Positions 1-25,253 of a stretch of 25,253 bases of DNA are shown piece by piece. The stretch comes from a virus: IMG/VR virus record IMGVR_UViG_3300033153_006481, positions 1 through 25,253 of that record; one strand, given 5' to 3'. Numbering within the stretch: position 1 is the first letter of the stretch; every line of letters starts with the position of its first letter. The notes under the pieces are model-generated. The model saw only the letters and a program-made list of their open reading frames with translations, searched no databases and was not told where the DNA came from. Position numbers and translations under genes: made by a program.

Positions 1-1
1 T

Positions 2-2644
2 TCCAGCAAAGGGATGGGCGGCAAACAGAAGGGAATGTGGGCTGGACCTAAAGCTCAGGGAGCAGACCTTGACGCATTGGCTGATGCCAAAGAGATGAAA
101 GCTGGCGGTGCCAGCAGGGACCAGATTAAGAAGCATACTGACTGGGTTGAGCTGAAAGAGGGTGACTGGGTGTACAACATCCCGGACACCGGTTTTAAGT
201 CTACAGAGAGACTTGACGCACTTCAAACACATAAAGATGATATAGCCGGATTGGAAAGTCAAAGACTACACACCATGGACCTCTATAACGATGGTCTTAT
301 TACCTTAGACGATTTGAAAGTTGATATGGCCGATTTCAGTGACCGCATACGCACCATGAAAATGAATACGCCGTCAGTAGCGGGTAAGTTCGGTGACTTC
401 TTCGGGCATGACAAAGGTTTCGCTGCATACCCTGAACTGGCTAATGTACCGTTCACTCTGGATAAGCTGGAAGGGACAGCTCAAGGGATGTATACACCTA
501 TGAGAAGCCGGAACCATGGTATTCAGGTAGACCCATCCTCTGATGTCACCTCTGTGGCAGCACACGAAGGTCTGGCGCATGCCGTACAGGATATTGAGGG
601 TAGAGTAGGCGGCTCAAATCTTGAGGCGGCCAGACTATATAACGAAAAGAAAATTGGAGAGGTCGAGAAACAAATAGCAGACAGTCGAGGGTCAGCTGAG
701 TACAAGCAGGCCCAGACAGATGCCAGAGAGGAGCTTCTGGGGGACCGTGAGTATGGTTCCTTGAGCTTTGCTGAGCGCTCAGAACTCCAAAAGGATGCCC
801 GGGACATTGCTCTTACGAAGACTGGCACCAACAAGCTCATAGAGGAGAGGCAGAAGCTGGAGGACACATCAGATTTTGCCACCTACCAGAAAGATTGGGG
901 TGAAGCAGAAGCTCGTGACGTCCAAGACCAGCTGGAAGACATCCGTATTATGGAAGATATCGATATGCCAGAGGCAGATATCGATGAGGTTATCAAAGGC
1001 GGTGCTCTGCGGTTTGACCGGCCCTTTGACGAGCTTATAGACATAACAGGGACGCTGGGTTCCAAGTCCAGCAGAAGCATGAGTGCCAAGAAACCCCGTG
1101 AGTCAGCGCAGCAGGCCAAAGATTCGGGTAAATGGCACCCGCTCGGGTCCAAGAAGTTACCTCAGTCTATCGACGACTACACCAGAAAAGTGGATAACGA
1201 CCCCAACGTACCGGAGTCCTTTGAGCCTGACTGGGATGAGTTAATTAAGAACAAAACGACCCTGCTGTCTGCAACAGGGGATAGGTCTCAGTATGGAGGC
1301 AAGGTCACTGAAGCAGGCGGAATACCCCTAGAGAGCCCGGTAGAGCTTGAGGGTGGCATGGATTTCATGAAGCGTAAAGACGCAACATGGGCCTCTGATA
1401 AAGGCCGCATAACCTCCATTCAGGACAGAGTCAAAGGGCAGCAGGCACGGGGTCGTGACCCTGTCATGGCTTATTCAGCAATGGGTCATGACCCCACAGA
1501 TTTCAATAAGATGACCTCTGATACCTTCTTTGAGATGATGAAGGGCGGTAACGTATCCAAGACCAAGATGGAGCAGTTTGACCGGGCTATGCGTAAGCTG
1601 GAGCCCCGGTGGCAGGGGATGAATGACCCTATGAGTTCTGAGCTGTTCCACAGAGTTGGTGATGTGCGTAAAAAATTCATGCAGGTAGCCAATAGCAAAG
1701 ACTTTCAACGGTTTTTCCCGGACCAGAATGCAGCACGTTTTGCAGTCACAGAGCCATCCCTGATGAATGTCCCAGTAGGCCAGTCAGGTCAGGCCATGTC
1801 ACACACTACCGGTAACATCCTTGAGAACCCTGACGTGGGCCATAACACCTATAACACGATGCTGGAAGCAGGCCGTGGCTATCAGGGCGGTATTGAGGGA
1901 GGCATGCCAAGCAAGGACTTCTGGCGTGACTGGACGGCACAGCGTCGGGCCAACCCCCTAGATAAAGGGGAGCAGTTTGATGCCCGCTCTATGGACCTTG
2001 GTGGTGCGACTCAGGATGTCGATGCAGCCTATGTGGAGGGATTGACCAACAGAGCTGAAGAGATTCGGCAGGGTGCGATTGACCCCACAAGCCCATACCT
2101 ATCCTCACCAAAAATTCGTGAAGGGCATGTCGGGCGTCATGGAGAAGCAATACCAGAAAATATAATAAAGAAAATTGATGAGACTGGGGGAGCAAGTGTC
2201 AACCCTGTGTCAGGAGCCCCGGTAGAGCGCGAAGGTTTTATGGTAGCATCAGAGCCCAACACAAATACCGGGCTAAACTCTATCATGCAAAATGCAACCC
2301 CAGAGGACCTCAAGGGCTATATGCAGGAGAACGCTCCATACTATGCTCAGCCGGGTAAGAAAATGGGTGCATGGAAACAGGGGGACGACCTGTATGTAGA
2401 ACCTGCTGAACAGATACTGGATTATGATGAAGCCATGAAATTTGGTAAAAAGACAAACCAGATAGCAGGGTTCGACTTAAACAAGTACCCTGAGTTCGAG
2501 GAGACCACAAGCCATAAGTTTCCTGCAGCGGGTCAGGAGTTTGACATAATGCCAGACGCAGCAACACTCAAAGCCAGAGCAGACGCCAAGCGCCAAGAGC
2601 TAATGCAATGGCTATTCAACATACAACAGAGGTTTGAACCATGA
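2..2644 (+). CDS. Large polyvalent-type phage protein, 3' part (zincin-like domain)
   Basis: The reading frame is open at the left edge, so this is the C-terminal part of a longer protein; residue numbers count from the ATG at 14. Residues 7-60 match a block common in phage polyvalent proteins (WAG..A..ADLDAL..A..M..G...I...T.W, then a W-rich strand). Residues 140-310 look like the zincin-type domain of these proteins: a YPEL strand, then H184-E185-G-L-A-H189 followed by AVQDIEG, and GEAEAR at 296-301 as the usual third-ligand helix. Residues 418-530 carry another recurrent block (GDRS, G-IPL-SPVELEGG, ATWASDKG, YSAMG). Residues 790-835 resemble a C-terminal block (GAWKQGDDLYVEP, NQIAGFDL). 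Polyvalent proteins are usually packaged and delivered with the DNA, and the position just before the scaffold fits a virion protein. One extra residue sits between the two His, so protease activity is doubtful. The stop overlaps the next ATG (ATGA). Confidence 0.72.
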   Translation, partial: SSKGMGGKQKGMWAGPKAQGADLDALADAKEMKAGGASRDQIKKHTDWVELKEGDWVYNIPDTGFKSTERLDALQTHKDDIAGLESQRLHTMDLYNDGLITLDDLKVDMADFSDRIRTMKMNTPSVAGKFGDFFGHDKGFAAYPELANVPFTLDKLEGTAQGMYTPMRSRNHGIQVDPSSDVTSVAAHEGLAHAVQDIEGRVGGSNLEAARLYNEKKIGEVEKQIADSRGSAEYKQAQTDAREELLGDREYGSLSFAERSELQKDARDIALTKTGTNKLIEERQKLEDTSDFATYQKDWGEAEARDVQDQLEDIRIMEDIDMPEADIDEVIKGGALRFDRPFDELIDITGTLGSKSSRSMSAKKPRESAQQAKDSGKWHPLGSKKLPQSIDDYTRKVDNDPNVPESFEPDWDELIKNKTTLLSATGDRSQYGGKVTEAGGIPLESPVELEGGMDFMKRKDATWASDKGRITSIQDRVKGQQARGRDPVMAYSAMGHDPTDFNKMTSDTFFEMMKGGNVSKTKMEQFDRAMRKLEPRWQGMNDPMSSELFHRVGDVRKKFMQVANSKDFQRFFPDQNAARFAVTEPSLMNVPVGQSGQAMSHTTGNILENPDVGHNTYNTMLEAGRGYQGGIEGGMPSKDFWRDWTAQRRANPLDKGEQFDARSMDLGGATQDVDAAYVEGLTNRAEEIRQGAIDPTSPYLSSPKIREGHVGRHGEAIPENIIKKIDETGGASVNPVSGAPVEREGFMVASEPNTNTGLNSIMQNATPEDLKGYMQENAPYYAQPGKKMGAWKQGDDLYVEPAEQILDYDEAMKFGKKTNQIAGFDLNKYPEFEETTSHKFPAAGQEFDIMPDAATLKARADAKRQELMQWLFNIQQRFEP

Positions 2645-2916
2645 CATCGAACGCACAATTAGAAGACGAGCTGTATGAGGCCAGACAGGCCAAGCGGCTC
2701 AGAAAAGATTTCCTTGGAGATTTTTTCCGGGATAAAGAGGCCCAGATTTTGGACCTTATTAAAGAGCTTCCACTGGGGTCAACTGATGCCTTAGTGAATG
2801 CGCACCACCAGCTGAAAAGTTTGAACGCCCTTCAGATGGAACTACAAACTGTGATTAACACAGGCAAGATGGCTGACGTCGAGAAGCAGCAAGCCCTTGA
2901 CAAAGCTGATAACTAA
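2641..2916 (+). CDS. Small helical protein upstream of the scaffold
   Basis: A 91-residue, highly charged, mostly helical protein with no signal peptide or membrane span. Its ATG overlaps the stop of the preceding large gene (ATGA), which suggests translational coupling. Short proteins of this general pattern (helical N-terminus, a central PLGSTDALVNAHHQLKSL-like stretch, a GKMA near the end) occur beside capsid genes of podovirus-like phages, but I know of no established function. Its place between the polyvalent gene and the scaffold suggests a head assembly or packaging accessory; this is inference from position. It ends 26 bases before the scaffold ATG. Confidence 0.75.
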   Translation: MTSNAQLEDELYEARQAKRLRKDFLGDFFRDKEAQILDLIKELPLGSTDALVNAHHQLKSLNALQMELQTVINTGKMADVEKQQALDKADN

Positions 2917-2942
2917 ATTAATAATGAGAGAGGAAGTACCCA

Positions 2943-4046
2943 ATGAGTAACGAAGACCATTCCACCCTTGAGGCGAACGTCGGCGACCCCATTGATGATA
3001 TTGCAGCCCTATTAATGGGTGGTGATGATTCTGGTGGCGAAGGCGAAGCTGACCCCACCAATGAACAGACACCTGCAACACCAGACACTGAAGATGATGA
3101 CGGCGCTGAAGAGCTACCTGACGAATCTACCGATGGTGATGATGATGTTGACGAGTCTGATGAAGAAACTGATGAAGCTGATGAAGCTGCTGATGGCGTA
3201 GACGATGAGTCCTTAGCCAAGATGTTAGGCATTGATGAGAGCCAACTATCCGTACTGGACGATGGTGGATTCAAGATTAACCTCAAGATTGATGGTGAAA
3301 ATAGCCAGATGTCTTTAGCAGATGTGATTAAGATTAATCAGACAGAAGGCAGCCTGACCAATAAATCAAAAGCCTTTGCAGACGACCGCAAAGCCTTTGA
3401 TGATGCAGTGGTTGCCAAAGCAACCGAGATTAAAGAAACTTTACAGCGCAACCAGCAGCTCACACAGATGCTGGAGCAGGAACTCATGGCGGAGTTTGAA
3501 CACGTCGAATGGGCTGACCTGCGACAATTTGACCCTGCTGAGTGGTCTGCAAAGCGACAGGAATTTGGTACCAAGTATCAGCGCGTTCAGCGAATGAAAC
3601 AGGTACTGGAAAGCCAGTCTACTGAAGCGGACGAAGTAGCTCAGAAAGAGTTCAAAGCTAAAGAGCAGGTATATCTTAAGGGTCAGTGGGACTCTATGTT
3701 GAATAACAACCCCACATGGTCCAATAAGGCAGCTTATGCCAAAGATATGACCGCTATAAGAGACTTTGCCAGCGAGGCCTATGGGTTTGGCGACGAAGAC
3801 TTTAAGCACGTCACTGACTCCCGGACGATAGAAATGGCGAAAGATGCCATGGCTTTCCGAAAAGGACAAAAAGCTGGGAAGAAAAAATTAGTCAAGGTGC
3901 CAAGAGTACAGAAGAGGGGTGGCGTGAGAAAAGTCGCCAAGCTCTCTAAATTAGACAAATTAACTAGAGCGGCTAAGACAGCTTCTGGAGCAGCAAAAAG
4001 AGATCTTCAGACTGACGCAGTCGCCGAACTCCTAATGGGTGGATAA
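2943..4046 (+). CDS. Capsid scaffolding protein
   Basis: A 367-residue protein directly upstream of the major capsid gene, the usual scaffold position. Residues 15-95 are extremely acidic and low-complexity (Asp/Glu runs). Residues 105-240 are predicted helical with coiled-coil character (many Gln, Glu, Lys). Residues 305-352 are strongly basic (several Lys/Arg clusters), a common arrangement for the capsid-binding end of phage scaffolds. The first and last structured segments end in nearly the same peptide, IAALLMGG (20-27) and VAELLMGG (360-367). A clear ribosome site (AGAGGAAG, 2930-2937) precedes the ATG. Scaffolds organise coat subunits in the procapsid and then leave or are cleaved. The role is inferred from composition and neighbours, as scaffolds diverge quickly. 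Confidence 0.8.
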   Translation: MSNEDHSTLEANVGDPIDDIAALLMGGDDSGGEGEADPTNEQTPATPDTEDDDGAEELPDESTDGDDDVDESDEETDEADEAADGVDDESLAKMLGIDESQLSVLDDGGFKINLKIDGENSQMSLADVIKINQTEGSLTNKSKAFADDRKAFDDAVVAKATEIKETLQRNQQLTQMLEQELMAEFEHVEWADLRQFDPAEWSAKRQEFGTKYQRVQRMKQVLESQSTEADEVAQKEFKAKEQVYLKGQWDSMLNNNPTWSNKAAYAKDMTAIRDFASEAYGFGDEDFKHVTDSRTIEMAKDAMAFRKGQKAGKKKLVKVPRVQKRGGVRKVAKLSKLDKLTRAAKTASGAAKRDLQTDAVAELLMGG

Positions 4047-4047
4047 C

Positions 4048-5106
4048 ATGGCTACAACAGCAGCACTAGCATCGTCCGACTTAAAATCAGCACTTGTAGG
4101 TGGCTTGATTCGTGAAGATGTAATGAACAAAATCTGGGATATTAGCAAAATCCCTCTTCCTTTCACAGACATGGTTGGTTCGGGTACTGCCAAAAATGAA
4201 TACAAAGAATGGACCCAAGATGAGCTGGCGCAACCAGACCTGACCAATGCGGTTGGTGATGGTGCAGATGCTTCAGGTAATGATACCAAGCTCGGCAATC
4301 GTGTCGGTAACCATCACCAGATTTCTGATAAGGTGGTCGAGGTTACCTTCCGTTCTAATGCATCCAACACAATTGGTCGTGCAAAAGAGCTGAGCTATCA
4401 ATTGATGCGTCGACAGCAAGAGTTGCGCCGTGACGTTGAGGCAATGGCCTTGAATAACCAAGCGTCTGTAGCAGATGATAATGCTAATGATGTGGTCGGT
4501 AAAGCAGGTGGCTTGCCCACATGGCTAACCACCACCTATGATGATGGCGGCGGTACTTCCGGCGGTTTCGATAAAGCTGGCGGCGGCACCACAGTGACTA
4601 CCGCTCGTATCCCGGGCGCTGGTCGTGCATTGTCTGAAGTCATGATTCGTGATGCGGTAGAAAGCATCTATGAAGAAGGTGGAGACCCTACCAAGATGAT
4701 GTCCATTCCGGGTATCATTCGTAAGTTCTCTGAGTACCTGTTCACCAGCTCTGCTCGTGTCGGTACCATCATGTCTGACCAAGGCAAGTCCAAAGAAAAA
4801 GCTGCAGCTCTGGGTTCGGTTAACGTCTTCGTTACTGACTTCGGCACTCTGCTTATGGTTCCTAATCGCCTTCAGCAAAAGTATAAAGATGTGAGCACCA
4901 CACTTGATGTGGCTGATGTCTTCATCCTTGACCCTGAGTATCTGTCCTTATGTTACCTGCAAGGTTATCGTACTGATGAACTGGCAAGACTGGGTCAGAA
5001 AGAACGTCGCCAGATGCTGGTTGACTGGACTTTGATTGTGAACACTGAGAAGGCTCACGGCCTTATCGCGGATATTGACCCTACACTAGCAGTAGTATCA
5101 GGTTAA
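4048..5106 (+). CDS. Major capsid protein (SU10/DUF5309 type)
   Basis: 352 residues, starting MATTAALASSDLKSALVGG. The sequence has the features of the DUF5309/SU10-type major capsid family, which is expected to adopt the HK97 fold. It has an N-terminal arm, then a central helix with the family pattern R-AKELSYQL-RRQQELRRDVEA (near residues 112-135), and a C-terminal half rich in beta strands with the motif LDVADVFILDPEYL. An in-frame GTG lies at 4039, but the ATG at 4048 is preferred. It starts like related proteins, follows a GGGTGG ribosome site (4037-4042), and sits one base after the scaffold stop. A hairpin follows the stop. Codon use looks more regular than in neighbouring small genes, as expected for the most highly made protein. 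Confidence 0.88.
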   Translation: MATTAALASSDLKSALVGGLIREDVMNKIWDISKIPLPFTDMVGSGTAKNEYKEWTQDELAQPDLTNAVGDGADASGNDTKLGNRVGNHHQISDKVVEVTFRSNASNTIGRAKELSYQLMRRQQELRRDVEAMALNNQASVADDNANDVVGKAGGLPTWLTTTYDDGGGTSGGFDKAGGGTTVTTARIPGAGRALSEVMIRDAVESIYEEGGDPTKMMSIPGIIRKFSEYLFTSSARVGTIMSDQGKSKEKAAALGSVNVFVTDFGTLLMVPNRLQQKYKDVSTTLDVADVFILDPEYLSLCYLQGYRTDELARLGQKERRQMLVDWTLIVNTEKAHGLIADIDPTLAVVSG

Positions 5107-5126
5107 ATATTTTAATGTGTAAATTC

Positions 5127-5152
5127 AGTATGCCCTGAGGTTGGGGCATACT
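5127..5152 (+). terminator. Hairpin after the capsid gene, probable terminator or attenuator
   Basis: A perfect 9-base-pair inverted repeat (AGTATGCCC / GGGCATACT) with an 8-base loop (TGAGGTTG), 20 bases after the capsid stop. The trailing sequence is only weakly T-rich (TTACCATAATTT), so it may be a leaky terminator or an RNA stability element that sets capsid mRNA above downstream genes. This is the longest gap in the plus-strand block (69 bases); I see no convincing promoter in it. Confidence 0.55.
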
Positions 5153-5175
5153 TACCATAATTTGGAGGGCATATC

Positions 5176-5451
5176 ATGCCAGCAGCAAAACCAGCAGCGC
5201 CACCAGCAGCAAAACCAGCAGCGCCACCAGCAGCAGCAGCAGCGCCAGAGGCACCAGCAGCGCCACCAGCAGCAGCAGCAGCGCCAGAGGCACCAGTAGA
5301 CGCCCCTGCAGTTCAGCCTGCAAAATTCAAGGTTAAGAATATCCACAAAGGTGCTCTCAATCTGGCTAACGGGAAAATTAAACCCGGAGGCGAAGGAATC
5401 GCAACCATTGCCGAATATTCGACATTGTCACAATATATGACGAAAGTCTGA
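5176..5451 (+). CDS. Ala/Pro-rich repeat protein with small C-terminal domain
   Basis: 91 residues. Residues 2-48 are almost only Ala and Pro, built from two repeat types (KPAAPPAA twice, then a 13-residue APPAAAAAPEAP(A/V) unit twice). Residues 49-91 look like a compact beta domain (FKVKNIHKGALNLANGKIKPGGEG, then a short helix). A strong ribosome site (GGAGGG, 5164-5169) precedes the ATG. Position straight after the capsid gene suggests a head-associated accessory such as a decoration or head-fibre protein, with the Ala/Pro part as an extended linker. This is inference; I do not recognise the C-terminal domain with certainty. The stop overlaps the next ATG (TGATG). Confidence 0.72.
   Translation: MPAAKPAAPPAAKPAAPPAAAAAPEAPAAPPAAAAAPEAPVDAPAVQPAKFKVKNIHKGALNLANGKIKPGGEGIATIAEYSTLSQYMTKV
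5185..5298 (+). repeat. In-frame tandem repeats coding the Ala/Pro linker
   Basis: Two perfect copies of a 24-base unit (5185-5208 and 5209-5232) are followed by two copies of a 39-base unit (5221-5259 and 5260-5298) that differ at one base; the two arrays overlap. Both unit lengths are multiples of three, so gain or loss of a copy would keep the frame and change only linker length. Confidence 0.9.
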
Positions 5452-5774
5452 TGGACGAGGTCCTGAGGAGTGATATCCATTATCAGGAGCATACAGGGGT
5501 TCTGACGCATAAGCTGACGCAACCCACTGAGCAACTGATACTTGACCGGAATGCGGACTTACGTCGCAGTAAGGGCATTCTTCGGGACCTCGGACAGGGT
5601 GAGGAAGGGGGTGTGTGGGGCCGACAGGTTGCCAGCATTCCCTTTATTATTTTTGAACAAGCAAAACGTGATGGCTATAACCTGAGCTGTAAAGACCAGA
5701 AAATAGCTGCACAAGAAATGAACCGATTTTTACAGACACCAGCAGGCAAAGCCTGTCTGGTCCAAGGAGACTAA
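5451..5774 (+). CDS. Conserved small phage protein, function unknown
   Basis: 107 residues, soluble, no signal or membrane segment. The pattern Q-x-x-EQLILDRNADLRR (25-38), then a Gly-rich turn, then VASIPFIIFEQAKRDGYNLS (60-79) and a final helix (EMNRFLQTPAGK) resembles a family of small proteins found near capsid or tail genes of many phages, for which I know no proven function. The ATG overlaps the previous stop by one base. The next gene has its own ribosome site. Possibly a head accessory or assembly factor by position only. Confidence 0.7.
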   Translation: MDEVLRSDIHYQEHTGVLTHKLTQPTEQLILDRNADLRRSKGILRDLGQGEEGGVWGRQVASIPFIIFEQAKRDGYNLSCKDQKIAAQEMNRFLQTPAGKACLVQGD

Positions 5775-5775
5775 A

Positions 5776-6045
5776 ATGTCAGGTAAGCTATGTTTTGGTG
5801 GAGTTTTTAATAATGCAGGGGCAGGGCACCTATCAGCCAGTAAAGCTTTTTGTGAGGGCTTGGCATACAGAGCAAAGGGCACTGCTACAAACTTCCCAGT
5901 AACTGATAACCCTCACATATCCGGCTCAGAGGATAACACTTCATGGGCCGCAGGGTGGTTAGTAACTGATAGTGCCACAGGGGGTCAAGTGGGAAAGGGT
6001 GATGCGCCATGTTGTTCTATCCCCCACAATACGATATTAGCGTAA
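5776..6045 (+). CDS. Small protein with RMF/CrpP-like motif
   Basis: 89 residues after a good ribosome site (AAGGAG, 5764-5769). Residues 21-66 show the pattern seen in small proteins related to ribosome modulation factor and CrpP. It has an Ala-rich helix with A..AF.EGLA, then NPHISGSE (45-52), then W57-A-A-G-W61 followed by an acidic residue, close to the NPY...W..GW signature. The C-terminal tail has a CC pair (79-80) and is not part of that motif. Known RMF dimerises ribosomes, and many phage members are uncharacterised. Placed in the head gene island, it may be a virion or host-modulating protein. The similarity is short, so the family call is tentative; the gene itself is secure by spacing and coupling to the next ATG (TAATG). 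Confidence 0.65.
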   Translation: MSGKLCFGGVFNNAGAGHLSASKAFCEGLAYRAKGTATNFPVTDNPHISGSEDNTSWAAGWLVTDSATGGQVGKGDAPCCSIPHNTILA

Positions 6046-6347
6046 TGAAACCGATAATGATGATGCGTACAAGCGGCCTTGCAGGTCCTGCGTATGCAAA
6101 ACATGCAGGAATTAAGGGTCTGAGTAAATCTACCGGTAACGCACATATCCCCGGTCACAAGTCCACTAGGTTTGTCCCTGAAGTTATCGGTTTAACTGAA
6201 GCCGCAGCCATAGCCGCCATTGAAGCAGAAGACTTGGTAGCTAGTAGATTTGGAACCCCGGTTCTAGGGTTGGTCACAATACAGGTCCCTGCGGCAAAAA
6301 CCTCTGTAAGAGAGGGTACAAAAGTAAATTACAGGCTTACTTCGTGA
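6045..6347 (+). CDS. PASTA-domain small phage protein
   Basis: 100 residues. Residues 43-100 match the PASTA pattern: VPEVIGLTEAAAIAAIEA (strand, helix), a middle strand, GLVTIQVPAAKTSVREGTKV, then a final strand NYRLTS. PASTA domains in bacterial kinases and penicillin-binding proteins bind peptidoglycan fragments or beta-lactams. On a phage particle such a domain could contact the cell wall or act only as a structural beta domain. Residues 1-42 are short and basic, possibly an anchoring tail. An upstream in-frame ATG at 6009 exists, but 6045 is preferred because it overlaps the previous stop by one base, the rule in this gene cluster. The end overlaps the GTG of the next gene. Confidence 0.72.
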   Translation: MKPIMMMRTSGLAGPAYAKHAGIKGLSKSTGNAHIPGHKSTRFVPEVIGLTEAAAIAAIEAEDLVASRFGTPVLGLVTIQVPAAKTSVREGTKVNYRLTS

Positions 6348-6517
6348 ATAATATAGCCTTAGAATTACTTACTTTAGAGGACCTGATAAAACTATTTCCC
6401 ACAGTGGTCCTAGTATTGATGGTGACTGCGGCAGGGTTCTTTGCTGCATGGTTTTTAGCATCAAAGCACATTGTTTCATTAAAAGAATTTATTGAATATT
6501 TAAAGAGTTTAAAATGA
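6344..6517 (+). CDS. 57-residue single-span membrane protein
   Basis: The frame starts with GTG at 6344, overlapping the PASTA gene stop (GTGA), and ends with TGA at 6515-6517, overlapping the adaptor ATG (ATGA). It fills the gap between these genes exactly, strong evidence for a real coupled gene. Residues 1-17 are mildly acidic (LEDL). About residues 18-40 form one hydrophobic helix (FPTVVLVLMVTAAGFFAAWF). Residues 41-57 are amphipathic and basic at the end (KHIVSLKEFIEYLKSLK). There is no cleavable signal. Its role is unknown: candidates are a membrane accessory of infection, a small holin-like protein or a virion component. Confidence 0.7.
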   Translation: MNNIALELLTLEDLIKLFPTVVLVLMVTAAGFFAAWFLASKHIVSLKEFIEYLKSLK

Positions 6518-7119
6518 ATTATGATGACATAATAGACCTACTCGCCACATACTCAGACCGAGAGGATGTTGAGGTACTGGACAGACTTGATAAGTTTCTG
6601 CGTATCGCTGAGATTAGGATAGGCAGACTATTGAATGTTGGAAAGATGGTAGCCCTATCTTCAATAACCTTATTAGAGGGTCAGGAATATTATACACTGC
6701 CGCCAGACTTCTCAGGACTACGCTCCATTAAGATGGTTGGGGGTGGGACTAACACCACTCTGCACATGCTGTCCCCTGAGCAAATGGTTTCTGTAGGTAA
6801 CCTCACTACTGCCGGGATTTATTATAATATCATTGGTCAACGGATACAGATATCCCCTATTCAATCGCTGGCTGAATTAGAAATAGCATACTATAGGTTG
6901 ATACCCCCACTAACCGTAGCCAACCCTCAAAACTGGGTATCAGTCTATGCCTCAGACGCGTATATCTTTGGAGGGATGGTAGAGGTTAGTTCGTTTGTTA
7001 AGAACGCTGATGCTGCTAAGTTATGGGATGACAGATTCCTAGACGCCATAAGCAGTATAGAAGATGCCGACAGTCGGGCCAGATGGTCAGGCACACCTCT
7101 ACAAATAAGGACCGGATAA
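6514..7119 (+). CDS. Head-to-tail adaptor protein (SU10 adaptor type)
   Basis: 201 residues. The N-terminal helical part has the recurrent adaptor pattern (DRLDKFLRIAEIRIGRLL, about 23-40), followed by a strand-rich centre with EGQEYYTLPPDFSGLRSI (55-72), a typical segment of podoviral adaptors of the SU10 or P22 gp4 functional class. The C-terminal helices (AYIFGGMVEVSSFVKNADAAKLW and the region after it) also fit. Adaptors form a ring under the portal and join it to the nozzle or tail. The gene lies between head and tail genes as expected. The ATG overlaps the stop of the membrane-protein gene. The stop overlaps the next ATG (TAATG). Confidence 0.8.
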   Translation: MNYDDIIDLLATYSDREDVEVLDRLDKFLRIAEIRIGRLLNVGKMVALSSITLLEGQEYYTLPPDFSGLRSIKMVGGGTNTTLHMLSPEQMVSVGNLTTAGIYYNIIGQRIQISPIQSLAELEIAYYRLIPPLTVANPQNWVSVYASDAYIFGGMVEVSSFVKNADAAKLWDDRFLDAISSIEDADSRARWSGTPLQIRTG

Positions 7120-9167: not shown

Positions 9168-9182
9168 ATTGAGGAACATGCA

Positions 9183-13406: not shown

Positions 13407-13693
13407 TGGATATTAGGACTACCTGCCCCCTAGGACATCAGTGTGAAGTGTCTAAAGACGGGTATGTTGAGCGGTGTGCTTGGTTTACTGAACTATCGGG
13501 CACAACCGCTGATGGCGATGCTATTGATGATTGGAAGTGTGCTATAGCTTGGCAGCCTATTTTACAAGTCGAGACGTCTATGACAAATAAAGGTCAGACT
13601 GAAGCTATCGAGTCAATGAGAAATGAGAATACTAAGAGGCAAGATGCAGCATTACAAATAGCATTTAATAGAGGTGTATTTCTTGATAAGTAA
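13406..13693 (+). CDS. Conserved four-Cys small phage protein
   Basis: 95 residues with C7, C13, C24 and C45 in a pattern CPLG-x2-CE, RCAW, W-KCAIAW-P, then a helical C-terminus (TEAIESMRNENTKRQDAAL). This combination occurs in a small family found in T7-like and other podovirus-like phages, for which I know no established function. The Cys spacing (5, 10 and 20 residues between) could fit metal or Fe-S binding, or disulphides, but the protein has no export signal. The start overlaps the fibre stop by one base. The 3' end overlaps the next gene. Confidence 0.75.
   Translation: MDIRTTCPLGHQCEVSKDGYVERCAWFTELSGTTADGDAIDDWKCAIAWQPILQVETSMTNKGQTEAIESMRNENTKRQDAALQIAFNRGVFLDK
13670..13674 (+). 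promoter_or_regulatory. Ribosome site that decides the start of the nozzle-like gene
   Basis: AGAGG lies eight bases before TTG at 13683. The alternative GTG at 13674 overlaps this site itself and has no ribosome site of its own, so TTG is the better start. Confidence 0.5.
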
Positions 13694-15976: not shown

Positions 15977-15986
15977 TGAGAGCACT

Positions 15987-17236: not shown

Positions 17237-17595
17237 TGGGGGGATTCGCAAGTATGTTTGGGGCCGCATCAGGCGGTGGTGGGGGCATGGGAGATATGTT
17301 TTCAGGCACAGGTGCTGATATGAATAGCTCGTTCTCCACACAACCTAACGGCGGAGGTATGTCAACCGGAAACATGATGGGCCTCATGGGCGGTGGTGGG
17401 GGTATTAAAGACCTTCGCACTAAGGGGCTGGAGTCTTATCGAGATATGAGCCGCGGTGACCTTGGAGGACTAATGGGAATGGTGCTAGGTAACCAAGCAG
17501 GCTCCCGGAACAACATGAACTCTAACCAACAACAGAACCAGCGGTTTGGGTCACCGTATCAAAACCCATATGTAACAGGCTTAATGGGAGTGTAA
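17236..17595 (+). CDS. Gly/Met-rich low-complexity virion protein
   Basis: 119 residues; about 40 are Gly, and Met is frequent. Two poly-Gly patches (GGGGG near 13-17 and 52-56) flank a Ser/Asn-rich region. Residues 57-88 hold the only ordered-looking stretch, with a charged helix (KDLRTKGLESYRDMSRGDLGGLMGMV). The C-terminal part has NSNQQQNQRFGSPYQNPYV, like a disordered tail. The start overlaps the previous stop by one base. Composition resembles the preceding gene and suggests a flexible partner in the same injection apparatus or a spacer inside the capsid. I do not recognise a family. Confidence 0.6.
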   Translation: MGGFASMFGAASGGGGGMGDMFSGTGADMNSSFSTQPNGGGMSTGNMMGLMGGGGGIKDLRTKGLESYRDMSRGDLGGLMGMVLGNQAGSRNNMNSNQQQNQRFGSPYQNPYVTGLMGV

Positions 17596-17597
17596 TT

Positions 17598-18845
17598 GTG
17601 GGATTCTTTCAAGATTATATGGAAGGCATGGCAATGAGGAAGAATCCTCAGCTGCTCCAGCAAAAACTGAGTAATATAGATGCAGACGCTCTCCGAGGCA
17701 CTATGGAGGAGATGTATGGTCAGGAGGCCACACCAGCAAACTACCAGCAGCAGACTGTCGAGACTGAAGGTCCAATGCAGCCGGGGCAGGCCCGGGACTA
17801 TATGCAGATTAACCAGTTGGACCCGGGTGAAGTGCAGGCTCAAGAAGAGGTTGAAGGGTCAGGTCTCTTAGGTTCCTCTGGCAGCCCAGAGGAGTCACGG
17901 TATCTGCAGGCCCAGAAAATTTTAGGCATGTCAGGTCAGGGTGCTGGTATGAAGCAGCAGTCTAACTTGCTTAGCCAGATGCAGAACTCTATTATGAGTG
18001 GCAGTGATGATGGTTTCGGCTATGAGGAGTATGCAGCAGCTAACCCGGAAGAGCGGGCCATGTATGACCGGTATAAGGGTCGGTTTGATTACTCTGGCGG
18101 CGCACAAGACCCCTCTCAGGTGGCAGAGCATAAGTATTATCTGAGCTTGAATGATGCGGGTAAGAAAGAGTATCTGCAGCGTAAGCGGGCGGACCAGATT
18201 GTTGACCAAGGTACTTACAGAACCAATACTCGTACTGACGAACGGTATGATAAGAATATTATTGAATCGAAAATTCAGGAAGGGTATGGTAAGAGTGTTA
18301 GCGATAAACTAGAAGGTTATGCAGACTATAAGAACCAGTCAAGGGATGCTGAATCAGAAGTAGAGAGAATACTGTTTGACTTAGATAACCTTGAAGCCGG
18401 TGCCAACAAATGGTCAACTGGTTGGGGCTCCTTACTGAAAGATATCCCTGAAACAGAGGCACTGGATTGGGAAGAGCAGAAGAAGACTGTCCTATCGGCC
18501 CTTAGTCTGGAAAAAATGCTGGAGCTTAAAGCTGCATCACCTTCCGGGTCAACAGGTTTTGGCGCACTGAACGCGAAAGAACTGGAGGTTCTGCAGACCA
18601 ACCTCGCATCACTTAAAGGTGCTCAAAGTGCCCCTGCTATCCGCAGGAGTATAGGCCGTATCCGTACCCAGATGAAGAAAGTGGGGCGCAATGTCAGAGA
18701 AGACCGCGCTCGAAGTGCCTTGTGGTATAAGAAAAATAGTAAATATCAAGACAGGAATCGTGGGGGTAGGTATGAGGCACCTTCTGCACCTAAAGTGGGT
18801 GATGACCCCGCATTCGAGAAATGGCTTCAGGGCACAGGTGGGTAA
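17598..18845 (+). CDS. Probable ejection protein with conserved helical domain
   Basis: 415 residues starting with GTG at 17598, preceded by GGGAG (17586-17590) at good spacing. Residues 1-130 are helical and Gln-rich, with low-complexity parts. Residues 130-235 are rich in charged and aromatic residues (EEYAAANPEERAMYDRYKG). Residues 265-345 match a recurrent helical segment of phage internal or injection proteins: DIPETEALDWEEQKKTVLSA, then ELKAASPSGSTGFGALNAKE, then LEVLQTNLASLKGAQS. The C-terminus is very basic (residues 345-390) and may bind DNA. Membership in the ejection complex is inferred from position and this segment. Confidence 0.68.
   Translation: MGFFQDYMEGMAMRKNPQLLQQKLSNIDADALRGTMEEMYGQEATPANYQQQTVETEGPMQPGQARDYMQINQLDPGEVQAQEEVEGSGLLGSSGSPEESRYLQAQKILGMSGQGAGMKQQSNLLSQMQNSIMSGSDDGFGYEEYAAANPEERAMYDRYKGRFDYSGGAQDPSQVAEHKYYLSLNDAGKKEYLQRKRADQIVDQGTYRTNTRTDERYDKNIIESKIQEGYGKSVSDKLEGYADYKNQSRDAESEVERILFDLDNLEAGANKWSTGWGSLLKDIPETEALDWEEQKKTVLSALSLEKMLELKAASPSGSTGFGALNAKELEVLQTNLASLKGAQSAPAIRRSIGRIRTQMKKVGRNVREDRARSALWYKKNSKYQDRNRGGRYEAPSAPKVGDDPAFEKWLQGTGG
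18836..18842 (+). promoter_or_regulatory. Ribosome site that decides the start of the last virion gene
   Basis: AGGTGGG lies five bases before the GTG at 18848. An in-frame ATG at 18821 would lie inside the previous gene and has no ribosome site, so GTG is preferred. Confidence 0.5.
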
Positions 18846-18847
18846 CC

Positions 18848-20752
18848 GTGAACAGAGATGATGCATACAGACAGTTTAAGTATGAGCAATATCTTGCAGA
18901 GCAGGCGCAGGCCGAAGCTCCTATGAATATGCCCCCCTCGCAGGCAGCCCCTGCTCCAACTCCAGAGCGTGAGCTGTCTGTGGGTGATGAGATTATCGGG
19001 ACTGCAGCTTCCGCAGGGCAAGGAGCCACCGCTGGCTGGTTAGATGAAATCATGGCTGTACCTATGGCCGGTGCTGCACACTTGATGGGAGATGCTCCAA
19101 AAGGTGAATCAGTTCTTGATACATATTCCAAGATGAAAGACTCTATCAGGATGCGTCAGAAGCAATATGATACAGACAGCCCTATCCTGTCCAACACAGG
19201 ACGATTAATAGGTGGTGTGGCAGGTCTGGGTAAACTCGGTGCTGGTGGTGGTGCCTTGAAGGCAGGACTCACCGGCGGGGCTTATGGCGCAGGAGAGTAT
19301 GCCGGCGCACTGGATGATTGGTCAGATGCAGATATTCAAGATGCTTTGATTCAGACCGGCTTGAGTGCTGGTCTGGGTGCCGGTATGCAGAAGGGGGGTC
19401 AGTTCGTGAGAGATTGGCTTGCCAAGAGACCTGATGCAATCTCCAAGGTACTGCAAAAGCTCAAGACCAGTGTCGGCGCTAATGATGATATGCTTAAAGC
19501 CAGAGCTTCCGATATGGGTCCTGAGGCCTCTCTGGCTGATGTGACTGGTGATGTCGGAGTGGCATTCTCTCAGGGTGCTAGAGGCAGGGGCGGCATGCCT
19601 GCTATTGACGCAGTTGAACGAAATTTACATAAAGTAAATGCCGCTAAAGACCGTATCAAGACAGCCATGGGCAAAGCCACCGGCAAGAAGCGGGGGCAGT
19701 TCTATGAGTCCATGGACGCCCTTAAGACAAATAGAAAACAGAATGCTGAGCGGCTATATGGGGCTGCTCTGGATGAAGGCTCTGTCGTACCTACAAAACG
19801 TATGTTGCATATCTTTGATAATAATCCCATGGTTAAAGATGCTTGGGGTGATGTACAGAATACCTATGCCAAAAATGATTTACCTCTGCCTAAGCTGTTT
19901 GATTATGATGACGCAGGCAAGGCTATATGGACCGGCAAGCGGTTCCCTAACATGAGAGCCACACAAGAACTTAAGTGGGCTATGGATAAGCGCCTGAGAA
20001 CCCTCAGAGGCTCCGTAGACTCCGCAGGTAAGAAAGAGTACAGTCGGGCGATGGATGACTATAAGGATTTCATGGCTGATGTGAACAAACAGAATCCTAC
20101 TTTCAGAAAAGCTAACGCTCAGTACGCCGGTGACTCTGCGATGATTGATGCTCAGGAGATGGGTGTAAAACATGGTTTGGGTGGCGCTCGGGTTGAAGAG
20201 CAAATGGAATATATTAAGGGACTGAATAAATCAGAAAGGGATTCATACTTGCAGGGGGTTATGACTAATACCTATGGAAAACTGGGTGCAAGCCCTGAGC
20301 ACATGATGGGCAATATTAATCAGGCGTCGTCAGAGAATGCACAGCAGGTATTGAATAAACTGGTGGGTAAAGATGCTACTAAAAAGATTATGCAGCAGTT
20401 TAAGTCTGAACGCAGATACCGGGAGGTAGACTCTAAGGTCCGTCAAGGGTCTCAGACTCAGTTAAGAGCGCTATCTGATGAAGCCATGGGTAAGATGGAA
20501 GGTGACCTGCCCATAGAGGAGCTGTCCAGAATAACCGGTCTTAGAGCAGCGACAAAAGTCATTGAAAAGATGTTACCTAAAATGAAGCAGACTGACGCGG
20601 CAGAGCTTGCCAGCATATTGACTAGGCCCGGAGGCGTCGAGGTTGCTATCAAACGCATGACTCAAGGCGGTATGCCCATAGGTCAGGCAGAGAAACTGGT
20701 GGGTCAGCTTATGCGACAGAGTGCCGTTGTTGCACCTACCGTTGGTGATTAA
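18848..20752 (+). CDS. Large internal virion/ejection protein with Gly-rich hydrophobic region
   Basis: 634 residues from the GTG at 18848. The N-terminus is polar and Pro/Ala-rich. Residues 35-55 hold a GDEIIGTAASAGQGATAGWLDEI segment typical of this protein class in phages. A Gly/Ala-rich hydrophobic region follows (about 108-150, LIGGVAGLGKLGAGGGAL and GGAYGAGEYAG), with membrane-insertion character, as in ejection proteins that form a channel. Residues 165-620 are long helices with many charged residues and a coiled-coil look. No lysozyme-type catalytic motif is visible. It is the last gene of the virion block; its TAA overlaps the stop of the opposing helicase gene. Confidence 0.68.
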   Translation: MNRDDAYRQFKYEQYLAEQAQAEAPMNMPPSQAAPAPTPERELSVGDEIIGTAASAGQGATAGWLDEIMAVPMAGAAHLMGDAPKGESVLDTYSKMKDSIRMRQKQYDTDSPILSNTGRLIGGVAGLGKLGAGGGALKAGLTGGAYGAGEYAGALDDWSDADIQDALIQTGLSAGLGAGMQKGGQFVRDWLAKRPDAISKVLQKLKTSVGANDDMLKARASDMGPEASLADVTGDVGVAFSQGARGRGGMPAIDAVERNLHKVNAAKDRIKTAMGKATGKKRGQFYESMDALKTNRKQNAERLYGAALDEGSVVPTKRMLHIFDNNPMVKDAWGDVQNTYAKNDLPLPKLFDYDDAGKAIWTGKRFPNMRATQELKWAMDKRLRTLRGSVDSAGKKEYSRAMDDYKDFMADVNKQNPTFRKANAQYAGDSAMIDAQEMGVKHGLGGARVEEQMEYIKGLNKSERDSYLQGVMTNTYGKLGASPEHMMGNINQASSENAQQVLNKLVGKDATKKIMQQFKSERRYREVDSKVRQGSQTQLRALSDEAMGKMEGDLPIEELSRITGLRAATKVIEKMLPKMKQTDAAELASILTRPGGVEVAIKRMTQGGMPIGQAEKLVGQLMRQSAVVAPTVGD

Positions 20753-22164
20753 CTTTTCCTCCTCCAATAATCCATAATAGCTGACTTAATCGAGGTCTCA
20801 TCGGAGGCCTTACGAGCCAGCGCTTCCCGGACAACCAAGTCGGTCGTATTATCCATAATCAAGCGATGGACCATAACAGGCCGCTCCTGACCCTGACGCC
20901 ACAATCTGGCTATGGTCTGGTCATACAGGTCCAAAGACCAGTTCATGCCATACCAGACAACTATGTGGCCTGCTTGCTGCAGTCTATCCAGTCCATGACC
21001 CAAAGACCCGGGGTGACCTATTAACATGCTCAGTTTGCCTGTGCGGAAGTCCTCAATGGCCTGAGTGGCCTGCTTCTCTGTCAGCTTGGCAGAAAACCAT
21101 ACGGCATTAGGAAATTTTTTCAAGATTTTATGGGCGTCATGCTGGAACTCAAACGCCACAATAATGGGCTCCCCGGCAGACTCCTCGACTATATCCTCCA
21201 GAGCATCCAGCTTAACATCATGTATCTGCTCCCAGTCAGGCTGGCCGGGAGAGGTGTAGATAGCACCATTAGCAAACTGCAAGGTCCGGTTAATCAGGCT
21301 GGCCGCATTGAATACCTCAATCTGTTGACCTGACTCCAGCTGCACCATCATCTCCCGTTCGATATCGTCGTAGGACTCCTGTAGAGCAGGCGGTAGGGTG
21401 AGCATGATATCGTTCGTGAGCAGGTCTGGCATGTCCAGATAATCCTCCGCCGCCATGCTGATGGTGATATCTCCTATGACATTGGCTATGGCTTCAGCCG
21501 CCCCAAAGCCCGGAGCATATCGATATCCCTGTCGGTCAGTCTGAATAAAGTAAGATTGTTTGTAGTGCTCAAAACTGGACCCCAGACGTGCGCCACCATC
21601 GACAACCAGATACTGGCCGAACAGGTCAAGCAGACCATTGCTGGCCGGGGTTCCTGTCAGCCCAATTCTGCGCCGGATAAATGGCAGCATCTTCAGGGCA
21701 GCCTTGCCACGCTCAGCACCCTGCCGGGTCCGGGCGTTCTTCAGCTTGGAAACCTCATCATATATGACCATATCAAAGGGCAAATAGCGGCCCTGTTTCA
21801 GGAATGTTGTTTCCAGATATTTCTGCAGCCAGTTGAGGTTCTCATAGTTAATCAGGTAGACGTTGGCCTGCCGTCGGATAGCCCTCATCCGTTTGTCTGG
21901 GGTGCCATGTATCAGGCTGAACCTTAGCCAGTGGGTGTGGTCCCACTTCTTGGATTCCTGACGCCACACAGTCTGACAAACTCGCAAGGGTGCCACGATG
22001 AGCACAGCCCGTATTTGCAGGGTGTCGAATAGGTCTGTAATGGCTGTCAGGGAGGCAATAGTTTTGCCCAGACCCATGGCTTGATGGAGCATAGACTGGT
22101 CACTCTGTAACAAGTGGTCTACCGTGCGGACCTGATAGTTGTGTAATTCATCCCGTCTTAACAT
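20749..22164 (-). CDS. SNF2-type superfamily 2 helicase
   Basis: 471 residues with the helicase motifs in order. Motif I (Walker A) is MGLGKT at 30-35. Motif Ia is near VLIVAPLRVC. Motif II is DEVS (136-139) instead of the usual DEAH/DEAQ. Motif III is LTGTP (169-173), motif V is GSLGHGLD, and motif VI is QTIARLWRQGQ (416-426). All belong to phage SNF2-type helicases, which couple ATP hydrolysis to movement on DNA, probably in replication, recombination or repair. The start (22164) overlaps the VRR-NUC gene by 17 bases, and a weak AGGGA precedes it. It is the last gene of the minus-strand operon and meets the virion block tail to tail. Confidence 0.9.
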   Translation of the reverse strand: MLRRDELHNYQVRTVDHLLQSDQSMLHQAMGLGKTIASLTAITDLFDTLQIRAVLIVAPLRVCQTVWRQESKKWDHTHWLRFSLIHGTPDKRMRAIRRQANVYLINYENLNWLQKYLETTFLKQGRYLPFDMVIYDEVSKLKNARTRQGAERGKAALKMLPFIRRRIGLTGTPASNGLLDLFGQYLVVDGGARLGSSFEHYKQSYFIQTDRQGYRYAPGFGAAEAIANVIGDITISMAAEDYLDMPDLLTNDIMLTLPPALQESYDDIEREMMVQLESGQQIEVFNAASLINRTLQFANGAIYTSPGQPDWEQIHDVKLDALEDIVEESAGEPIIVAFEFQHDAHKILKKFPNAVWFSAKLTEKQATQAIEDFRTGKLSMLIGHPGSLGHGLDRLQQAGHIVVWYGMNWSLDLYDQTIARLWRQGQERPVMVHRLIMDNTTDLVVREALARKASDETSIKSAIMDYWRRKS

Positions 22165-22456
22165 AGGCTGTCCCTATAATCTTGGCACCATCAATGATGA
22201 GTTTTCCTTCTTTGATATCGTCCATAACAAACACCTTAACCCCATGCTCTCGTATACGGTTAATCTCTCGCTCCTGCCATGGCTCAAGGTCACCATCAGG
22301 AGACTTGAACTCAATCAGGAAGCACTGACCATGTCCGAACAGGATGCGGTCGGGGCCTCCCCTCACTCCTATGCTGTGGTATTTGCGAACAAGGAAGCCC
22401 TGCTCCTCTGCATACTCGCATACTGCGTTTTCAATCTTGGTTTCTTTCTTACCCAT
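22148..22456 (-). CDS. VRR-NUC domain nuclease
   Basis: 102 residues, the size of stand-alone phage VRR-NUC proteins. Key residues are E9 in the first helix (IENAVCEYAEEQG), then G-V-R-G-G-P-D36-R, then E49-x-K51 in LIEFKSPDGDL, then Q61 after W60. Together these form the PD-(D/E)xK-type active site of the family (E...D...ExK...Q). Members cut branched DNA; phage versions are proposed to resolve replication or recombination intermediates. AAGGA lies about 5 bases upstream of its ATG inside the end of the polymerase gene; only one base separates them. It overlaps the helicase gene by 17 bases, so the two are likely made together. Confidence 0.9.
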   Translation of the reverse strand: MGKKETKIENAVCEYAEEQGFLVRKYHSIGVRGGPDRILFGHGQCFLIEFKSPDGDLEPWQEREINRIREHGVKVFVMDDIKEGKLIIDGAKIIGTAYVKTG

Positions 22457-22457: not shown

Positions 22458-24419
22458 TTAATCCTTAGTATAATGTTTGGTTATAAAGCCCTCTGCCTTA
22501 AGCAGAAGACCCGGAGCCCAGTCAATAGGAACAGCTGCCTGAGCGTTGACGTAGTCCAATACTCCCGGGGCTATCTCACCATCCACTACAGAGATGAACT
22601 CATCATGAATCCGTGCCACGATATGCAGGCCTGTGCAACGGTCTACCCACTCGAAGAGGATGTCCCGGGCCAGCGCTTGAATGATGTTCTCTGTGACACC
22701 TCCTGCATGAGCTGCGATACGCTCCCATGTCGGCTTAGACTTAAACCGGTTAATGCCCATATAGGTGAAGCTCATCTTATCTCCTATGGGGGTATCCCAC
22801 ATCTGCCAGATAGGTTGGAAGTAAGATATGTTACGTCCGCTGGGCAGTCTGATAAACAGGAAGTCGTCCTGCTTGTAGAGGGTCAGTCTATACCCTGAAC
22901 TAGGTTTTCCTGAGGTCAGGGTGTATTCAGTGGCTTTCATGAGCCAGCGCCAGAACGAGGGTATCTCGGGGTAAATTTCCCGGAAGGTATCCACCGCATG
23001 TTGTGCTTCGTCTTGAGTCATCTCGACTCCCATGTTGGCTGCGTATGCTGCCAGACCTTTACCGCCCATCATGTAACCTGCCCCCAATACTGGAGGTTTA
23101 GAAAAATTTCTCTGGAACTTAGTCACGTCACTATAGTCTCGATGGAACAGCTCCATGGCAAAATCTTTATAGGTGTCCATGTTTGCAGCAAAGATGTTAT
23201 TCATTCTGGTACAGTTAGTCAGCCAGCCAAGTACCCGGCTCTCAATGGAGCTGAGGTCAGAAACCACCAGCATCTTACCTGCAGGGGCAGTTATGGCAGC
23301 ACGAACAGTTCTGGCTAAGAAGTCCAGAGGCTCACCCATAACCATGTTAAGCAGTCCAAGGTCTCCATAATAGAGATACTTGATGAGCGTATCCATGTTG
23401 CCCTTGGGTGGGTGCCTGAGGTTCTGCAAATTGACTCCACGGCTGGCATCTCTCTGGGTGCGTGACGCTCCCATGTGGGTGAACATACCTTTGAGGGTGT
23501 TATCCGGGCAGAGCATCTTCTGGATGCTGTTCCACTTGGTTACAGCCGTCTGACTGATGGTCCTCTTTTTCTGTAGGACTTCATGACACAGGGTCCCCAG
23601 CATACCGCCATCAAGTGCGTTGTCCACAGTGGCCGCCTGCAGGTTGGGCAATTTGACCCCATGCATGAGCAGCAGCCACGGCAGCAGCTGTTGTCCTGAG
23701 TTCGGGTTGGCCAGTCCAGTCAGCTTGATAAGGTCCTTCTTTATCTCACTTTTACGCTGAGTTGACATATCAATGGCTCGGTCCACTAGCGCCGGGTCGA
23801 CCGGCATGCCTCGCTCATTCATCTCCTGAGTTAGCTGCCAATAGTGCCACTCCTTTTCTGAGATAGAGTCATACGGTTCCAGCAGCATCCACATCTCACG
23901 CATAGATTCTGTGTCACGAATGCCGTAGGCCTTGAATTTCTCCCAGCCTTCGGGGTCATTCTCCTTGGTCCACCGGGGCACGTTGTGGGATGGTGGCTGT
24001 GGTTTGCAGAAGTGTAGGATGAGCTTCCGGCCCTCCTTAATCTTGAGCTTATCGTCAGCAAGACCTATTTGCTCCCCGATAGCTCCAAGACCTCCTGAGA
24101 AGCCAAGAGAGTATGCTAAGGTGTGGGAATCCATACACTGGTCCCATGGTAAAATAATTTGGTGTTTTTCTTTTAGAAGTCCCCGGTCGAAGGGGATGTT
24201 GGCGGCTATTTTTGTGTAGCGGGGGTCCATTAAATTCTGGACCAGTTGAAAAGGTAACGGGCCATCATTTGCGATATCATGACAGGCCACAGGGCCCTCC
24301 CGGTAAGCCCATGTAATAATCAGGGTCTCAGTGGAAGGGTCCCGCACATATCGTGCAGCCCCTGTTGATTTAATTTTGGACTCAGAGTAGCTCTCAAAGT
24401 CAAAGAACAAGGGCTCCAT
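22458..24419 (-). CDS. Family A DNA polymerase with 3'-5' exonuclease domain
   Basis: 653 residues. The N-terminal exonuclease has D7 and E9 (FDFES), N74-IPFD78 (Exo II) and Y165-GIRD169 (Exo III). The polymerase domain has motif A VVSDLSSIESR (D388, E393), motif B R437-x3-K441-x7-Y449, and motif C H605-D606-E607. All catalytic positions are present, so both polymerase and proofreading activity are expected. It is shorter than bacterial DNA polymerase I and lacks a 5' nuclease domain, like other phage replicative polymerases of this type. A strong ribosome site (AGAGGAG, on the minus strand at 24425-24431) precedes the ATG. It is followed directly by VRR-NUC and SNF2 genes, a replication set. 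Confidence 0.95.
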   Translation of the reverse strand: MEPLFFDFESYSESKIKSTGAARYVRDPSTETLIITWAYREGPVACHDIANDGPLPFQLVQNLMDPRYTKIAANIPFDRGLLKEKHQIILPWDQCMDSHTLAYSLGFSGGLGAIGEQIGLADDKLKIKEGRKLILHFCKPQPPSHNVPRWTKENDPEGWEKFKAYGIRDTESMREMWMLLEPYDSISEKEWHYWQLTQEMNERGMPVDPALVDRAIDMSTQRKSEIKKDLIKLTGLANPNSGQQLLPWLLLMHGVKLPNLQAATVDNALDGGMLGTLCHEVLQKKRTISQTAVTKWNSIQKMLCPDNTLKGMFTHMGASRTQRDASRGVNLQNLRHPPKGNMDTLIKYLYYGDLGLLNMVMGEPLDFLARTVRAAITAPAGKMLVVSDLSSIESRVLGWLTNCTRMNNIFAANMDTYKDFAMELFHRDYSDVTKFQRNFSKPPVLGAGYMMGGKGLAAYAANMGVEMTQDEAQHAVDTFREIYPEIPSFWRWLMKATEYTLTSGKPSSGYRLTLYKQDDFLFIRLPSGRNISYFQPIWQMWDTPIGDKMSFTYMGINRFKSKPTWERIAAHAGGVTENIIQALARDILFEWVDRCTGLHIVARIHDEFISVVDGEIAPGVLDYVNAQAAVPIDWAPGLLLKAEGFITKHYTKD

Positions 24420-24421
24420 AA

Positions 24422-24700
24422 TTACTCCTCTATTTCATAGTCATATGATGTAAGCATAGGTGCCGCCTGTCCTGCAAGTCCTATACTCCCACCATAGTAG
24501 TCCTCTGCAGTGGGGTCACTTGGCCTTACGGACTGTGGCGGTGCTGGTGGTGGTGCTGCTTGCACTGGCACATAGCCATGCTTAGCAGGCAATACTCCAG
24601 AGGCCTTAACATAGCCCCGGCCAAGCTCACTTATAATAAGACCCAGCACTGACTGCAGGTCACTAGAGTGGTTGCACTCTATCGTGATAACTGTTTTCAT
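24422..24700 (-). CDS. Small Pro-rich protein upstream of DNA polymerase
   Basis: 92 residues. The first 35 form a compact-looking strand-helix unit (MKTVITIECNHSSDLQSVLGLIISELGRG), followed by a Pro/Ala-rich linker (VPVQAAPPPAPPQSV, about 45-60) and an acidic C-terminal tail (YDYEIEE). An acidic C-terminus after a Pro-rich linker is reminiscent of single-stranded DNA-binding proteins, which use such tails to contact partners. However, there is no recognisable OB fold here, so I do not call it one. The ATG overlaps the stop of the coiled-coil gene (ATGA). It ends two bases before the polymerase start. Confidence 0.65.
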   Translation of the reverse strand: MKTVITIECNHSSDLQSVLGLIISELGRGYVKASGVLPAKHGYVPVQAAPPPAPPQSVRPSDPTAEDYYGGSIGLAGQAAPMLTSYDYEIEE

Positions 24701-25253
24701 TTCACAGTACCCTCAGGTTTTGCAGTACCCACAGCTCGCTCCAGACCGTTAACTCTGTGGTATAGGCGAGTGGCTCTTTCATCTTGACCCTTAAGCGCAG
24801 CGGAGATAGACTCTTCCGACGCAGCTGCATCAGTCTCTAACGCGCCGATACGTTCTCTGTGGATACTTAATGCGGATTCTGAAGCACTTTTCTCCTGTTG
24901 CAATCGAGAGAGTGTGCGCTCTAAGTTATCTATGCGGCTACGCTGGCTATCCTGTCTCTTTTCGAGAGCCATATCTGTCTTCCGCATATTATCCACAGAA
25001 ACATTTATGCTATTTATGGCACCATCCAAGTTGTTTGCACGAATATGCTGGCCATCTTGTCTCTTATCGATAAGATTAAGCTGCTTGTGCAAGTCCCCAA
25101 CCCCCACATCTACTTCTGTAACCTGCTCATCCATGGTGGTCATACGGTCCCGCTGGCCGGACAGCTGGGAGTCAATGGTGCTGAGTTTTCTGAATGCCAT
25201 GTCAAGGCCATCTTGCATGTTGTCGATACGCTCATCCTGTTTGGCTATAGTAA
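24697..25253 (-). CDS. Coiled-coil protein, 5' part beyond the window
   Basis: The frame is open at the right edge; an internal ATG at 25218 would give 173 residues, but codons upstream to the edge continue the same repeat pattern, so the real start is probably outside. The protein is nearly all helical heptads with repeated short units such as KQDERIDNMQDG, KRQDGQHIRANNLDG and KRQDSQRSRIDNLER, ending with DERATRLYHRVNGLERAV. It has no membrane span or catalytic motif. As the first visible gene of the replication block, it may be a structural or assembly factor, but position alone does not say. The stop overlaps the next ATG (ATGA). Confidence 0.65.
   Translation of the reverse strand, partial: TIAKQDERIDNMQDGLDMAFRKLSTIDSQLSGQRDRMTTMDEQVTEVDVGVGDLHKQLNLIDKRQDGQHIRANNLDGAINSINVSVDNMRKTDMALEKRQDSQRSRIDNLERTLSRLQQEKSASESALSIHRERIGALETDAAASEESISAALKGQDERATRLYHRVNGLERAVGTAKPEGTVK

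Follow-up and report, generated by a model that had tools for sequence, protein, structure and literature searches.

This work reports that the virus DNA of IMG/VR record IMGVR_UViG_3300033153_006481 (positions 1 to 25,253; this whole stretch of 25,253 nucleotides is called the window), a partial genome (25 kb) of an uncultured phage whose capsid is of SU10 type, lacks or nearly lacks two short words, GATC with two sites and CCWGG with none. These are the words methylated by Dam and Dcm in enterobacteria, and CCWGG is the site of EcoRII and MvaI. We propose that both words were probably eliminated from the phage lineage through synonymous changes, driven by hosts that cut phage DNA at these sites, most likely with two Type II restriction-modification systems. 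Site elimination is a strategy well known from phages such as T7, and the window is a clear new example of it, not a new kind of system; added here are the loss of CCWGG, the proof at the codon level, the specificity of the losses to single lineages of the family and the same pairing of words as in T7.

Loss of GATC and CCWGG in the window

The region and the two surviving sites are as follows.

1-25253, no strand: region with GATC depletion (2 sites) and zero CCWGG, by Markov and codon-shuffle counts
4002-4005: first GATC site, in AGATCT context within the scaffold protein gene; also present in the overlapping contig L001, another record
14329-14332: second GATC site, in GGATCT context within the virion structural gene at 13674-15248

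A preliminary description, made from the sequence alone, had held that GATC is almost absent, with these two sites, and that composition is not the cause, and both claims are borne out. The two sites compare with 75.5 expected under a maximal-order Markov model (observed/expected 0.026; Poisson P(<=2) = 4.8e-30) and with 87.9 ± 7.1 under shuffling of synonymous codons (z = -12.2; the lowest of 500 shuffles held 66), wherein synonymous codons were permuted across 27 genes such that every protein and the pooled codon usage were preserved. The scarcity is uniform, each 5 kb of the window holding 0-1 sites where 12.5-16 are expected. The remaining four-base palindromes range in observed/expected ratio from 0.38 (CTAG) to 1.42 (CCGG), CTAG and CGCG (0.42) being moderately low. 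Therefore, the expectation of the preliminary description that a Markov count of palindromes would give a ratio below 0.1 for GATC only holds among the four-base words, but it fails once CCWGG is included, a word equally lost that the description had missed by treating GATC as the sole avoided one.

A scan of degenerate palindromes found no CCWGG in the window, against about 80 expected in Markov simulations, 76.8 under an order-2 and 61.4 under a maximal-order Markov model, and 58.2 ± 6.2 in the codon shuffles (z = -9.4). Among the palindromes screened, each with at least 12 sites expected, ratios below 0.1 were found only for GATC, CCWGG and words containing GATC, and both GATC (2/75.5) and CCWGG (0/61-77) lie within the bounds used for site elimination, namely an observed/expected ratio under 0.1 where the expectation exceeds 15 sites.

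The codons reveal how the words are avoided. Before C, aspartate is written GAC 96 times and GAT once, yet before A or G GAT is commoner than GAC; isoleucine following a G-ending codon is never ATC (0/81). Likewise, glutamine between C and G is CAA 16 times and never CAG, leucine in the same position is never CTG (0/51), though CTG is common elsewhere, and proline before GG is CCC or CCG in all 25 cases. Where a codon pair encodes the same amino acids in the window as in a non-avoiding relative, the GATC sites of the relatives are never retained in the window (0 of 175 relative-by-site comparisons), whereas 26-47% were retained for ATAT, ACGT, TTAA, AGCT, CATG, GTAC and GCGC; some other words are also seldom retained (e.g. 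TCGA and GGCC, 3-4%), and the cells of this comparison are not independent, the relatives being related to each other. The word loss is thus synonymous, selective and site-specific, and it exceeds what composition, codon usage or protein sequence could yield, causes that the codon-preserving shuffles rule out; selection has acted on the DNA word rather than on composition.

To a mutational bias, or an effect of composition or codon usage, such as deamination of 5-methylcytosine at CCWGG, we give next to no credence. Its product, CTWGG/CCWAG, does stand at 1.22 of expectation, but the other one-step neighbours of CCWGG reach similar or greater values (TCWGG 1.39, GCWGG 1.36, ACWGG 1.20), which rules out deamination as the source of the CCWGG loss. 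Additionally, deamination of 5-methylcytosine would have no effect on GATC, the codon-preserving null fails for both words, and near relatives have normal counts.

Losses across the capsid tree

The capsid protein served to collect seventy relatives, and the histories of the words were read on the capsid tree. The overlapping contig L001, 99.3% identical to the window over 9.5 kb, reaches further left, and its extra 4.5 kb holds no GATC against 17 expected. The nearest relative L002, with 79% capsid identity, has neither word (GATC 0/65, CCWGG 0/56), and both records share the two losses with the window. A single CCWGG of L001, at 5407, lies where the match to the window stops (the alignment breaks at L001 5406-5410) and may be an assembly or indel artefact. 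The sequences diverge at window 889-927 and L001 5397-5410, and L001 has a break there in the long open reading frame, as an indel or an assembly error would produce.

For relatives of about 70% capsid identity, ratios mostly lie within 0.6-1.2 (GATC) and 0.55-1.6 (CCWGG), apart from a few exceptions (e.g. L006, CCWGG 0.29). On the tree, GATC elimination takes at least three changes, in the window clade, in L019 (genome G012; GATC 0/95, GGCC 0/78) and in the pair L070/L043 (GATC 0/88 with normal CCWGG in G034; GATC 2/14 in L043). These would most simply be three gains, fewer gains with losses being formally possible. Conversely, L034-L042 and their kin hold CCWGG at 0-0.1 with normal GATC. The window clade has thus lost both words, which elsewhere in the family disappeared independently of each other, and the loss seen in the window is lineage-specific, confined to one small clade. 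Within one phage family, site elimination has thus been gained lineage by lineage, between relatives still about 70-80% identical in their capsids.

Other words are missing elsewhere. The relative G012 (L072 and L073) is without GATC and GGCC and nearly without CTGCAG, GCATGC and GRCGYC, a pattern such as the action of several restriction systems would leave. GANTC is absent from phiM5 (L099; 0/152), and ctXG6705 (L103) lacks CTNAG (0/155), CCWGG (0/38) and GGCC (0/19). In phages with moderate GATC depletion, RGATCY is nearly lost, at 0/35 in Ss1 (L100), 2/40 in VA-RY-3 (L101), 0/12 in L027 and 1/13 in L032, which is a context effect within GATC.

Restriction, mismatch repair and methyl marks as possible selecting agents

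With Type II restriction as the probable cause, one host system would have had GATC specificity, of the DpnII/MboI kind, and another CCWGG specificity, of the EcoRII/MvaI kind, the two being met together or in turn. Every lost site would make cutting of the unmethylated genome after injection less likely, and with almost no sites left the phage could enjoy passive immunity without a methyltransferase of its own; the host enzymes, their identity and the unmodified state of the phage DNA are what we infer here. Across almost 4000 surveyed viral genomes, orthodox Type II sites were eliminated (below 0.1) in 7.1% of site-phage pairs, as against less than 0.5% for the other types, and the phages concerned were mostly non-temperate (PMC6286503). 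Like those cases (Rusinov et al., 2018; PMC6286503), the window combines ratios below 0.1 at more than 15 expected sites with orthodox Type II words, as which GATC is classed (PMC4687349), in a double-stranded DNA phage.

Several points weigh against this reading. Unlike in the cases of that survey (PMC6286503), the searches made for the window gave no link to a host, and no host enzyme was seen. The word with the other middle base, CCSGG, is in excess (82 against 30.5 in the codon shuffles and 60.2 under the Markov model), and removal of CCWGG accounts for this only in part, because CCSGG sites occur in each of the three frames. The related records are fragments, so that a methyltransferase gene could sit in a missing part, and MutH can also select against GATC.

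The preliminary description had named a host restriction enzyme or a Dam/MutH system as the selecting agent. Selection itself stands, being synonymous, site-specific and seen in one clade; as to the agent, a restriction enzyme is favoured over Dam/MutH alone. It is unlikely that host Dam/MutH mismatch repair counter-selected GATC by nicking or cutting unmethylated phage DNA while a separate EcoRII-like enzyme led to the loss of CCWGG. Such counter-selection is known for enterobacteriophages (Deschavanne and Radman, 1991, cited in PMC5014478 and PMC4687349), and phiX174 is without GATC (PMC5014478). T7, with GATC 6/141, comes from a Dam+ MutH+ host, and several of the nearest named homologues of the window are in gammaproteobacterial phages. 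However, mismatch repair would leave all words but GATC unaffected, whereas CCWGG is at 0 against about 58-77, so that a second, separate agent would be required. Dam/MutH alone is disfavoured because CCWGG is lost as completely in the same phage, because the GATC-free relative G012 also loses GGCC, a restriction-type word not read by mismatch repair, and because the compared phages of Dam/MutH-type hosts, T7 as a non-relative (0.04) excepted, reach only 0.31-0.56. These partial depletions are those of Cronobacter phage Ss1 (0.31), Vibrio phage VA-RY-3 (0.34), MZH0603 (0.56) and phiEco32 (0.42), whose hosts we take to be of the Dam/MutH type. MutH could add to the loss of GATC, not to that of CCWGG. 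The likeness to phiX174 has the same limit: its GATC loss, there linked to mismatch repair, is complete, but phiX174 is a small single-stranded DNA phage (PMC5014478), and the window is also without CCWGG, which is outside the reach of mismatch repair.

The parallel with T7, which the preliminary description had drawn for GATC, proves apt and stronger than claimed, since T7 shares both losses (GATC 6/141, 0.04, and CCWGG 2/83 by the same method). T7 is a virulent podovirus of similar size from which the same two words are eliminated; it differs in also lacking several 6 bp words and in carrying Ocr, and its gene order is unrelated to that of the window, whose capsid is of SU10 type. The phages phiEco32 and DSL-LC05 have likewise eliminated CCWGG (2/82 and 1/106), but GATC is depleted only in part in the former (0.42) and close to normal in the latter (0.82).

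Since the missing words are exactly the enterobacterial Dam and Dcm words, as in T7, the phage might have avoided methyl marks and not cutting, if Dam/Dcm-type methylation in one host exposed its DNA to modification-dependent nucleases (DpnI-like, McrBC-like) in another; we regard this as improbable. Enzymes cutting 5-methylcytosine in CCWGG contexts exist (PcaRCII; PMC8989522), and GATC is under expectation in every one of the 46 phages with hosts that carry DpnI-like enzymes (PMC6286503). Nevertheless, apart from GATC, elimination is rare for modification-dependent enzymes (PMC6286503), and the two words were lost separately in other family members. If methyl marks were the target after all, the window and T7, of unrelated build, would have converged on a genome free of them.

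Avoidance of a site-specific nuclease of the phage itself that degrades host DNA is very improbable. Some phages do encode such enzymes, but the sole recognised nuclease of the window is a VRR-NUC protein, and the scanned parts of the GATC-free G012 and G034 genomes show, among the 25 families listed, only HNH, PD-(D/E)XK and repair-type families, which do not fix a specificity.

Methyltransferases were sought as well. In related records, which are fragments, MethyltransfD12 (PF02086) and N6_N4 methylase (PF01555) were found in none of 34 and C5 methylase (PF00145) in none of 13, and no methylase was found among the window proteins scanned with Pfam. Therefore, the relatives with normal counts are not simply methylase carriers, and their protection by a Dam or Dcm methylase of their own is not supported. 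Two D12-type methyltransferase genes (L108 and L110, G036) are separated by about 2 kb in an Omnitrophota metagenome-assembled genome (MAG), a layout like that of DpnII-type systems.

If Type II restriction is the cause, as we favour, the set of missing words forms a readable record of the restriction enzymes in the hosts of an uncultured phage, and is therefore a clue for the host assignment of metagenomic phages.

Host searches and gene content

Searches for the host gave no consistent answer. Neither the polymerase nor the helicase, each scanned as a single protein, returned relatives, and a scan of genome contigs gave five loci in MAGs or genomes of four groups (Fermentibacteria, Omnitrophota, Tropicibacter and Paraglaciecola) without agreement, the MAGs being possibly misbinned. 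At the DNA level, window 1-19900 was compared with 369 genomes from the class to which the Paraglaciecola MAG belongs; it matched almost only in the alanine/proline stretch at about 5178-5300, plus the capsid gene in that MAG. A 24 bp exact match at 7968-7991 showed no obvious CRISPR (clustered regularly interspaced short palindromic repeats) repeats on inspection by eye only. The nearest named homologues of several genes, those in gammaproteobacterial phages, point to a gammaproteobacterial host, but weakly so, because for the DUF7483 protein the relatives are in Roseobacter, Pelagibacter and cyanophages. Searches for tRNA genes and Rfam families gave no match.

The recognised genes of the window are as follows.

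14-2644, + strand: large polyvalent-type protein of 876 amino acids with LPD23 domain (Pfam PF18838, E=1e-11); frame open to the left edge of the window
2943-4046, + strand: head scaffolding protein (phrog_3927, E=2e-23)
4039-5106, + strand: major capsid protein of SU10 type (PF17236, E=9e-65), the marker for collecting relatives
6514-7119, + strand: SU10-type head-tail adaptor (PF24175, E=1e-28; phrog_2941)
10064-11938, + strand: putative tail protein with DUF7483 (PF24299, E=1e-71), with relatives in Roseobacter, Pelagibacter and cyanophages
13674-15248, + strand: virion structural protein (phrog_3287, E=7e-86)
18821-20752, + strand: putative internal virion protein (phrog_5880, a family without an assigned function; role suggested by position)
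20749-22164, - strand: SNF2-type helicase (PF00176, E=4e-19; phrog_62)
22148-22456, - strand: VRR-NUC nuclease (PF08774, E=3.5e-5; phrog_93)
22458-24419, - strand: DNA polymerase family A (PF00476, E=6e-19; phrog_17)

The major capsid protein and the adaptor, both present, place the phage in the SU10-type class, and its gene content suggests a podovirus-like, short-tailed virion. The LPD23 gene stands just downstream of a large L001 open reading frame (1760-4189) in the portal position, and by analogy its product could possibly be a second, protein-based layer of antirestriction. In the Thiohalocapsa phage L097, a distant relative, a gene annotated as DarB-like antirestriction adjoins the portal gene. 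The stretch at 5178-5300 is a low-complexity repeat coding for alanine and proline, and its length is unequal in the window and L001.

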